Shown here: positions 60,916 to 64,000 of the stretch, in pieces
Position numbering within the stretch: the first letter of the stretch is position 1
Layout of the letters: each line of letters starts with the position of its first letter
Source: Leptolyngbyaceae cyanobacterium RU_5_1
Lineage (GTDB): Bacteria; Cyanobacteriota; Cyanobacteriia; Leptolyngbyales; Leptolyngbyaceae
Reading direction: 5' to 3'
Length of the DNA: 64,000 bases
Assembly (NCBI GenBank): GCA_012034055.1
Contig: JAAUSG010000002.1
Span: 1 to 64,000, forward strand
Program-made: the position numbers and the translations under genes
The notes under the pieces: generated by a model
Database searches by the model: none
What the model was told of the DNA's origin: nothing
The model's input: only the letters and a program-made list of their open reading frames with translations

Positions 60916-61948
60916 CTAATTTCCTGCCTTTGTTGCCCCACCTTTCCTCAATGCCTCTGCCTGAGCGGACCAACGGGAAACTTGCACTCCACGATTAACA
61001 CATGCTTCTACATCGACTAATTTTTCCTGATCGTCGAAAACTTTGCAAGCTTGCCGTTGCGCGGGTGGAATAGAACGAGTGTCTAATTCGTACCAACCAG
61101 AGTGCAACCCGACAATGTAGTAGATACCGTCATTAAAAAGAGCAAACATTGGACTTCCAGACGCTCCACCCATCGAGTCACACTGATGAAACAACAGTCC
61201 CTTCAACCTTCCTTGAGTAGGTGTGCCCAAAATGTTGCATCCAGCGTGTACACCAGCCGTTTGCCCACCATTGTTTGGATCTGGAAAATCGCCTGAATAG
61301 CCTGCCAGTCGAACTTGATTGATGGTTTTGCCAAGGACTTTGTCATCTGTTAGGTTCAGCCTTCGCCAACCTAGATAGCCATAGTTATCTCCCAAGGGTC
61401 GATCAATTTTGAGAATTGCCCAATCGTCGGCTGGATTGCCCTTGGTGTAGCCCTGACCATAAATCGATACAGCAACATTTACTGTTGCTGTATCGGGCGA
61501 TCGCCCATCACGCAGGTTTGGTCTAAACCGCATCGTTGCTTTTCTGGGCTGCTTCGTTTTGCGGTCGAGCAAGCAATGGGCATTAGTGAGTACCGAATCT
61601 CTCCCAATCAGAGTTCCTGTACAAATGCCACCCGTCCCGTCCCCATTATTCCATTCCAACCGCCCCGATCGCAGACCAGGGGAAGCTCTGGTTATCTACA
61701 GCAATCCGGTTATCGTCTCCAACAATTGCCCGATTGGGGTCAGCCGGGGAATGAGACTGCCGACGATCGTTGGGGCGAAATGTCTTGCCATCTGAAGCGG
61801 GATTGAAAGGGATTGCGATCGGGGTTGGTGGTACAAAGACAGGATGCTTGGGTGGATTGGGAGACTGAGCCTGCCCAGACGATAGGAAACCTGGAATTCT
61901 GCTGCTCACAGCTCCTACAAAAACTAAGGCAAAAAACTTTCGGTTCAT
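60916..61948 (-). pseudogene. secreted trypsin-like serine protease, frameshifted
   Basis: The first frame (61948-61646) encodes a signal peptide (about 1-27) and a Pro/Ser-rich leader ending SFPWSAIGAV. The protease proper continues in another phase from EWNNGDGTGGICTGTLIGRD. It has a His-Asp-Ser triad: TNAHC, DDWAIL and GGASGSP. Dropping one G from a GGGG run (CCCC at 61673-61676) joins them. The protein would be about 343 residues, secreted or periplasmic. Confidence 0.8.
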
Positions 61949-62060
61949 TAAAGCCTCCTCACAGTTTCGTGGATTGTCGAGTTTGAGGATGCACCTACAA
62001 TAATTTTGCTGAAGACAGAAGCAAATCCAGGACTGGTTTCAGTTCTGGATACAGATCAAG

Positions 62061-62124
62061 AGATCCCCGACTTCTGAATCAAATTGAGTTAGCATGAGAG
62101 TTTTAACCAAGAAGTCGGGGATCT
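62061..62124. repeat. GATCCCCGACTTCTT palindromic repeat, copy 2
   Basis: AGATCCCCGACTTCTGAATC at the left and AACCAAGAAGTCGGGGATCT at the right. The third copy starts 32 bp later in the same orientation. Confidence 0.9.
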
Positions 62125-62156
62125 TGGTCGCCCTTCCATCAATACCCGACAGCTCC

Positions 62157-62221
62157 AGATCCCCGACTTCTGAATCGAATTGAGTCAGCAATTAGGGTTT
62201 TAACCAAGAAGTCGGGGATCT
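62157..62221. repeat. GATCCCCGACTTCTT palindromic repeat, copy 3
   Basis: A near-identical copy of the element at 62061-62124, including the interior GAATTGAGT and GTTTTAACC blocks. It lies 11 bp after the end of the CHAT remnant (on the minus strand). Confidence 0.9.
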
Positions 62222-62232
62222 TGTGCACAGGT

Positions 62233-62974
62233 TCACCAGAGTCCCTGTATGGTAAATGCCGCCCAGTAGTAAGGATGTTGATAAGGATCCTTCGGATTAT
62301 GGCGGTGGGCTTCCCACATCTGTTGTTGGGCTTGACGTAAAGCGGCGGCGGGAGACTGATTCTGCCGCAGCATTCCCTGATAAAACTGACTCATCAACTC
62401 AGCCGTGGATGGCTACACTAACGTTCCAAAGCGAAACAACTAAACGCTTGGCTCCGGCATACATAAAGCCCCTGGTTAACCCCATGATGCCCTCGCCTCG
62501 TACTTCCCGTCCTTGTCCGGTTTGACAGGCACTCAGCACTACCAAATCGGCAGACAGCTTCAGATTAAAAATCTCTTCCAGGTTTAGCCAGCCATCATCG
62601 TTTGTCGGCTGCCCCTGCGACTTGAATTGGGACAAAACCAGAGTAGATAGGGCAGGTTTTTCGTCATTGATCCAGCCGTGGGTGGCAAAGTGAACGATAC
62701 GGTACTGGTTGAGGGAGGCGTTTGGCACCCAGGACTGATTTGCATCAAAGTCAAATGCGGCGGTTGTTTGTCCAGGTTCCGTAAGCTGAAGGATTTGGTC
62801 TCCTTCTTGACGGGTGCAGGGCAAGGGATTGAGGTTGCCTCTGACGTTTCGTAATGTAACTTGCAGTTCGATCGGTAAGTTTTCCTGGTTGGTGTCTATG
62901 GTTGCCTCTGCTTCAGAAGTCGTAGCAACACATTGTTCACGCTCGCCCAATTTGGTGATCCGTGGGTTATCAAA
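62233..62974 (-). pseudogene. CHAT-domain protease remnant, frameshifted and cut by IS21
   Basis: CHAT domains are caspase-like cysteine proteases, usually behind TPR arrays. The remnant has the catalytic His in IVHFATHGWI and Cys in VVLSACQTGQG, then GLTRGFMYAGAKRLVVSLWN. Soon after VSLWN the phase changes (about 62405-62418) and the natural C-terminus follows in the next frame: TAELMSQFYQGMLRQNQSPA and ending in AAFTIQGLW. The N-terminal part, with any TPRs, is absent: the sequence becomes an IS21 end at 62975. Confidence 0.82.
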
Positions 62975-63381
62975 TGTCAATTATCCTGACCGATTCGCGA
63001 CAATTATTTTGACCGCTTTTTGTCATCAGAAAGAGAGCGCTGTTGAGCTGACTGTTGACGACAGCTCTCTGCCTGAATTTCGAGGATGAGGGCATGGTGA
63101 ACTAAGCGATCGACTGCGGCAACAGTCATGGTGGAGTCAGTGAAGATAACATCCCAAGCGCTGAAGGGATGATTGGCAGTAATGAGCAAACTTTTGAGTT
63201 CATAGCGATGAGCAATCAACTCAAACAGCACAGAAGTTTCGGCATCTGATTTTTTGACATAGCTGAGGTCATCAAGAATCAGCAAGTCATACTTATCGAG
63301 CTTGAGCAGTGCCGATTGCAGTTGAAGATTGGCTTGAGCTGCCTGCAACAGTTGCACCAGGGTGGTTGCCGAGGGGTGCAA
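62975..63381 (-). mobile_element. truncated IS21-family element with istB fragment
   Basis: The end TGTCAATTATCCTGACC (62975-62991) and the internal repeat CGACAATTATTTTGACC (62998-63014) are typical IS21 terminal sequences. The adjacent minus-strand frame 63381-63004 is the C-terminal half of the helper ATPase IstB (LDKYDLLILDDLSYVKKSDA, TANHPFSAWD, TMTVAAVDRLVHHA). The Walker A half and istA are missing, cut off near 63381. Confidence 0.85.
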
Positions 63382-63418
63382 TTAAAAGTGGCAGTCCGGA
63401 ATTGCAGGACTGGAGTCG

Positions 63419-63763
63419 CTATGATACAAGGTTCACGCTTTGGGCATAGCGAGCAATCACTTCGGCATCAAGTTTGTCGGTTTTCGCTTTGCCTAAGGCG
63501 ATCGCGAATCCTTTAACTTTTCTGGGGTTGGCGATTGCAACTGGAATGGCCGCGCTTTGCAACCCACAAACGAGCGCTCGTTCCAATCCCCCGGTTGATT
63601 CGACTCCGACCAAATGAGGGGGAGTCTGTTTGAATTGTTCAATCAGCGCTTGCACTCCAGCCTTACTGTTGGACACCTGTAAGGTTGACCCTTGAGGGAG
63701 GATGTACACGTCTAGACTGGCTTTACAAACATCGATACCGACCCATGTTTTTTCGGATGTCAT
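63419..63763 (-). pseudogene. IS110-family transposase, N-terminal half only
   Basis: The frame begins MTSEKTWVGIDVCKASLDVY and contains GVESTGGLERAL and KTDKLDAEVIARYAQS, the RuvC-like DEDD catalytic domain of IS110 recombinases. It stops after SVNLVS, at about residue 114. The C-terminal Tnp domain with the catalytic Ser is absent, so the copy is inactive. It abuts the truncated IS21 piece, in the same orientation. Confidence 0.88.
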
Positions 63764-64000
63764 CGTTTATGCTGAGGTAGATTTTGGTGTCCCTTTGACG
63801 ACTCGTCCTTGCAAATTCGAGGTCAACCCCTCTAGCGATTGTTCGAGTTTGAATCATTGGGCATCTCGCGTGGCTCCGAGCGCTACCAATCGGTGTCAAG
63901 CACCAAGGGGGAACTGGGTTGCCACGCGCTTCTTAAAAATACAGGCACCCAGGCTACAAGGCGGTGTTTTGTTCACCAAGGATGGGACGGGTTACCTAGT
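63764..64000 (-). ncRNA. IS110 5' non-coding end, candidate bridge RNA
   Basis: In IS110 elements the non-coding end next to the recombinase start encodes the bridge RNA that pairs with donor and target DNA. This region, upstream of the transposase on the minus strand, has no gene but clear inverted repeats. CGCGTGGC (63867-63874) and GCCACGCG (63921-63928) are perfectly complementary, and between them GGTG (63892-63895) and CACC (63901-63904) close a small loop. The window ends inside or near the element's left end. The RNA assignment is inference from family and position. Confidence 0.45.

Follow-up and report, generated by a model that had tools for sequence, protein, structure and literature searches.

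The window analyzed here comprises the first 64,000 nucleotides (nt) of contig JAAUSG010000002.1 of Leptolyngbyaceae cyanobacterium RU_5_1 (assembly GCA_012034055.1). Aligned with intact relatives, positions 63764-64000 and 12 further bases are the noncoding left end of an element of the IS110 group of insertion sequences (IS). It is highly probable that this end belongs to a dead element and encodes a bridge RNA (predicted at ~210-230 nt) with a donor-binding stem-loop (SL3), an ordinary target-binding stem-loop (SL1), and an extra stem-loop built like a target-binding one (SL2). An earlier note on this DNA had proposed a candidate bridge RNA from a perfect 8-base-pair (bp) inverted pair enclosing a smaller hairpin in the noncoding stretch upstream of an IS110 recombinase fragment. 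The pair (CGCGTGGC/GCCACGCG, at 63867-63874 and 63921-63928) and the smaller hairpin inside it (GGTG-CTTGA-CACC at 63892-63904) are present, the fragment (PF01548) begins on the minus strand at ATG 63763, and the RNA is supported by covariation over 12 elements and by matches between guides and junctions. The 8-bp hairpin is part of this RNA but is not its ordinary target loop, which is SL1, 5' of the 8-bp stem. The features of the element are as follows.

63764..64000, continuing to contig position 64012, minus strand: noncoding left end of the IS110 element, holding the predicted bridge RNA (covariance model and alignment with intact copies)
63944..63996, minus strand: SL1, predicted ordinary target-binding loop (guide-flank match, covariation)
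63867..63928, minus strand: SL2, with the 8-bp stem, putative extra loop built like a target-binding loop (stem covariation, flank tracking, clade)
63789..63862, minus strand: SL3, predicted donor-binding loop (guides match element ends)
63422..63763, minus strand: N-terminal 114 codons of the IS110 recombinase, ATG at 63763 (Pfam PF01548, E = 3e-18)

Element ends, intact relatives, and target sites

The earlier note had suggested aligning complete copies from the same genome. None was found there, nor was any second copy (the RNA model matches the window copy only), and the ends were defined instead from copies in relatives. In G005, a genome of the same family, a recombinase N-terminus 72% identical to that of the window occurs at 17 places, 16 of them within 312-residue frames. 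The aligned G005 copies have the left end TGTATGTTGAGGG and the right end GACAATCG, with a core CT at both sides. Their noncoding ends measure ~250 bp on the left, which holds structured RNA, versus ~115 bp on the right, and full-length relatives thus carry the long RNA end 5' of the recombinase, where the note had expected it for the IS110 group. Over 15 distinct G005 sites, the left junction reads CGCCC-CT (the first C and CC-CT in 15/15, the G and the following C in 14/15) and the right junction reads CT-AC (15/15). Five of six copies in G512 are inserted in ACCCAAC-CT-AC. One of the six (L110) follows GATACAGTCGCT, which is closer to the donor sequence ACAATCGCT than to the usual target, and perhaps lies beside another IS110 end.

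Extension to the right, which had also been suggested, located the boundary of the window copy. The contig continues past the window to 92,380, and a stretch of it (L003) spans the element junction. Alignment with intact copies places the left end at contig position 64012, 12 bp outside the window, with the core CT at 64013-64014 and ACCCAAC-CT as the left flank. This flank forms one end of a palindromic repeat, the other arm of which, AACCCAACCTAC, lies 60-70 bases off. The repeat, adjacent to the window on its right side (L003:1011-1095, contig 64010-64094), has the ends GTAGGTTGGGT and ACCCAACCTAC. Relatives in G005 and G512 are also inserted at CTAC ends of palindromic repeats, and most targets of these elements are such CTAC ends, in short palindromic repeats that are dispersed. 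Covariance model R1 matches the window at 63788-63997 on the minus strand with 249.6 bits, the window being one of its six training sequences.

Judged by the same alignments, the window copy is dead: of the 312 recombinase residues only the first ~112 are left, and the right end is gone. With two thirds of the recombinase and the right end lost, it cannot act by itself. About 112 of the 114 recombinase codons in the window align with relatives, and the fragment is 72% identical to residues 1-112 of the 312-residue G005 protein, which is in turn homologous to the IS621 recombinase (E = 4e-33; intact relatives align over residues 4-302). By alignment, the fragment keeps the RuvC-type acidic residues and lacks the Tnp domain, to which the catalytic serine belongs. 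Intact relatives have the whole DEDD recombinase with RuvC and Tnp domains, of which the window holds the N-terminal part only. A junction promoter, TTGAC[A/T]-17-TAT[G/C]TT, is predicted from sequence in 7/7 relatives examined, and because the right end is lost, its -35 half is also lost in the window copy. There was no Rfam match over 61000-64000 at E up to 1, no match when plasmid DNA was searched with the element left end, and no relative in viral contigs.

Short IS110 derivatives also occur, in which the bridge RNA is present and the recombinase gene is internally deleted or nearly absent (L092, L083, L088, L090, L094, and L096 in G035, and L118 in G575). From end to end, L092 measures ~440 bp and L118 ~500 bp. 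These derivatives resemble nonautonomous elements and could be mobile if recombinase is supplied in trans.

Fold and guides of the bridge RNA

Alignments of relatives define the three minus-strand stem-loops SL1, SL2, and SL3. Covariation over 12 elements is 0.216, versus 0.105 in shuffles and at most 0.072 in slid versions. A 40-pair structure is 89% paired over these elements, with 30 cells changed on both sides versus 7 in shuffles, and the 8-bp SL2 stem has both-sided changes in five of its eight pairs. An inverted pair like that of the window is also present in 118 of 1000 dinucleotide shuffles (~12%), and it is only because of covariation among relatives that the structure in the window goes beyond chance.

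The note had anticipated that the loops could be read against element and target junctions, and guides within them do match element ends and target flanks. In SL3, the left donor guide AACAATCGCT (63834-63843) and the right donor guide ATTTGCAAG (63808-63816) are separated by a small hairpin. The left guide is identical to the sequence at the right end of intact relatives (GACAATCGCT), and the right guide pairs with the left end CTTGTATC. The right guide has the same letters as the right donor guide of IS621, as deduced from the pairings in PMC11208158.

SL1 likewise has a small hairpin between its left guide, TCCCATCCT (63979-63987), and its right guide, GTAG (the complement of CTAC, 63954-63957). 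The left guide matches the window flank ACCCAACCT at 7/9 positions. The guide-flank tests cover 15 related two-loop elements, a small sample that includes some decayed copies, with guide registers set by hand within up to two bases of freedom. Across this set, the agreement between SL1 guides and the flanks of their own elements has z = 6.0 (p < 2e-5, permutation), and matches by element reach 9/9 in L107 (CCCGCCCCT) and 8/9 in L006 and L110. In an unbiased scan of all nine-base RNA windows, the SL1 guide ranks first (z = 5.4). Single-loop relatives have only a homologue of SL1, followed by the donor loop, and their guides also match (L008, CACAGGTCT; L047 and L057, CGCACCCT; L051, CACACCCT), as do longer right guides (GCAGAAG vs. 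CTTCTGC in L022; GGAGAAG vs. CTTCTCC in L020). Given that SL1 guides fit the flanks and that single-loop relatives keep the SL1 homologue alone, we take SL1 to be the ordinary target-binding loop.

The extra target-type loop

SL2 repeats the layout of SL1 and is apparently a duplicated loop. It contains CCAG, nine variable bases (TTCCCCCTT, 63905-63913), a GGTGCTTGACACC hairpin (63892-63904), and GGTAG (with GTAG at 63883-63886). The nine variable bases fit the flank of their own element better than those of other elements (z = 3.8, p = 1e-4; p = 5e-4 to 3e-3 in reduced sets) and also resemble the SL1 guide of the same element (p = 9e-4 to 0.025, with a larger set and a restricted register). 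A first permutation test, with 12 elements and free offsets, had given p = 0.006-0.1 for SL2 against the flank and p = 0.017-0.18 for SL2 against SL1. Because both the element set and the scoring changed between the permutation tests, the unbiased scan offers a fairer view, and in it the SL2 guide appears at the expected columns with z = 3.3 and a mean score of 5.8. The L076 flank ATCCATTCT is matched more closely by the SL2 guide (GTTCATTCC) than by SL1, and L077 has ACAGCCT in both loops versus a CTAGCCT flank.

In the recombinase tree, which rests in part on fragments, the two-loop elements all fall on one side of a single branch (84/90 support; 87% of bootstrap trees). Among the relatives compared here, those outside this clade have one target loop and no SL2. 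Where the canonical layout has exactly one target-binding loop, this clade has two target-type loops, and their placement on one branch suggests that SL2 is an extra loop probably gained once in this lineage. We lean slightly toward SL2 being functional as a second, target-reading loop of the target type. The fuller proposal, on which we are evenly divided, is that the bridge RNA of this cyanobacterial IS110 clade works with two tandem target loops. The recombinase would read both of them, both would stay matched to one common target, and target choice or strand exchange would draw on a pair of target guides in each RNA.

Several observations weigh against the reading of the left end as a bridge RNA with an extra target-type loop. 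The window sequence alone folds no better than shuffles (z = -0.26). Its SL1 guide mismatches its flank at two positions, and the right flank is lost; the right end is also missing from the window, such that half of the element's own donor pairing is deduced from relatives. The SL2 signal is weaker than that of SL1, and in most cases SL2 does not have the U needed for pairing with the core T. The permutations leave relatedness in, and the background that relatedness makes is seen in one other, meaningless window of the scan, at RNA position 189, where z is 3.5 although the mean score is low (3.5).

The main rival explanation, which we consider possible if on balance doubtful, sees in SL2 a copy of the target loop that is decaying. 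One tandem duplication would have produced a loop that keeps its fold and no longer reads DNA, and its resemblance to the target would be a leftover or be refreshed occasionally by conversion from SL1. Such decay is consistent with the poorer match of SL2 than SL1 to the target in most elements, with the core T that SL2 usually leaves unmatched, and with the little target tracking seen in L036, L083, and L107. However, the SL2 stem and loop layout are kept across several families with compensatory changes, and the SL2 guide still varies with the target and beats SL1 in L076.

It is very improbable that SL2 is instead the true target loop, occupying the place beside the donor loop that the target loop has in IS621, with SL1 as the counterpart of the IS621 5' stem-loop. 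The IS621 order of 5' stem-loop, target loop, and donor loop (PMC11208160) and the complete target-loop layout of SL2 favor it, and SL2 as ordinary target loop was our first idea (SL2 in G005 holds GCCCCT near GTAG). It was dropped because flanks fit SL1 better in most elements and because, in the single-loop relatives, the one loop that precedes the donor loop is the homologue of SL1. An IS1111-type element was rejected as well, given the guide RNA in the left end, the short right noncoding end, and the guide matches. Least probable is that the stem-loops have no part in guiding and serve the recombinase gene only as a leader or attenuator; their place immediately before the ATG and a single-sequence fold no better than that of shuffles would suit this, but the loops match both element ends and targets and track target changes between elements, and the leader-hairpin reading was rejected on RNA position and guide matches.

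In this picture of SL3 as donor loop, SL1 as ordinary target loop, and SL2 as an extra target-type loop, the ends, core, structure, guide-junction matches, and clade are shown by sequence, whereas we infer that the RNA is transcribed and bound by protein, that strands are exchanged, and what SL2 does. By homology to IS621, the excised circle of intact relatives would join the right end to the left end and so rebuild the promoter, which would then transcribe the bridge RNA from the left end. The pairing partners of SL3 would be the joined ends of the element itself, around the core CT. The SL1 left guide would pair with the bottom strand over CT and the bases to its left, and the right guide GTAG with CTAC, perhaps with SL2 binding the same target alongside SL1. 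The recombinase would then exchange strands at CT.

Neighboring remnants and known systems

The IS110 fragment breaks off at remnants of other insertion sequences, as follows.

63373..63431, strand not assigned: end remnant (59 bp) of another insertion sequence, at the IS110 break (same letters in L002)
63004-63381: IS21 istB gene, C-terminal half

In L002, on another contig of the same genome, the 59-bp letters sit at the end of an element with transposase-like open reading frames. The remnants appear nested over 63004-63431, with the istB part followed by the 59-bp IS end and then the IS110 fragment. The IS110 left end starts with the same letters as stand at the junction (CCTTGTATC), which may be due to chance. 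Farther to the left are an apparently truncated CHAT-domain (caspase-like) protein fragment (62399-62980; Pfam PF12770, E = 3e-35), two tandem copies of a repeat, each an inverted pair (AGATCCCCGACTTCT ... AGAAGTCGGGGATCT; 62065-62225), and, on the minus strand at 60916-61948, a trypsin-like peptidase in two overlapping frames (60916-61659 and 61646-61948), reflecting a frameshift or sequencing error.

Bridge RNAs are a recent, programmable recombination system. They have been predicted in 85.7% of IS110s (PMC11208160, PMC11208158), and one is therefore expected here. In published models, a 5' stem-loop is accompanied by a single target loop and a single donor loop (PMC11208160, PMC11208158). 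By term search, neither PMC11208160 nor the seekRNA paper PMC11187229 mentions two target loops, and no report of tandem target loops was found in the literature searched, which did not extend to subscription papers and preprints and is thus weak evidence of novelty. An additional target-type loop in a natural lineage would demonstrate that modules can be added to the RNA, and it would have implications for the way in which target specificity is determined. With defined ends and targets available in the multicopy relatives, the SL2 question is directly testable.

The element and IS621 have DEDD recombinases that belong to the same family, and both carry the RNA in the left end. They also share target and donor loops, core CT, CTAC-type right target, identical right donor guide AUUUGCAAG, junction promoter, and insertion at the ends of palindromes like repetitive extragenic palindromic (REP) sequences. 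The element differs in that, in the two-loop clade, the first stem-loop is itself a target loop, with a second one of target type placed between SL1 and the donor loop; the RNA of this clade is ~30-50 nt longer than that of IS621, which has 177 nt (PMC11208160, PMC11208158). Single-loop cyanobacterial IS110 relatives (L008, L022, L047, L050, L057, and others) share the ends, core, and donor loop and have a target loop homologous to SL1, but they lack SL2, and the right target guides are longer in some. Elements of the IS1111 group with seekRNAs (PMC11187229) have the recombinase superfamily and the guide-RNA principle in common with the element described here, whereas their RNA lies in the right end and is accompanied by subterminal inverted repeats, versus the left-end RNA found here.
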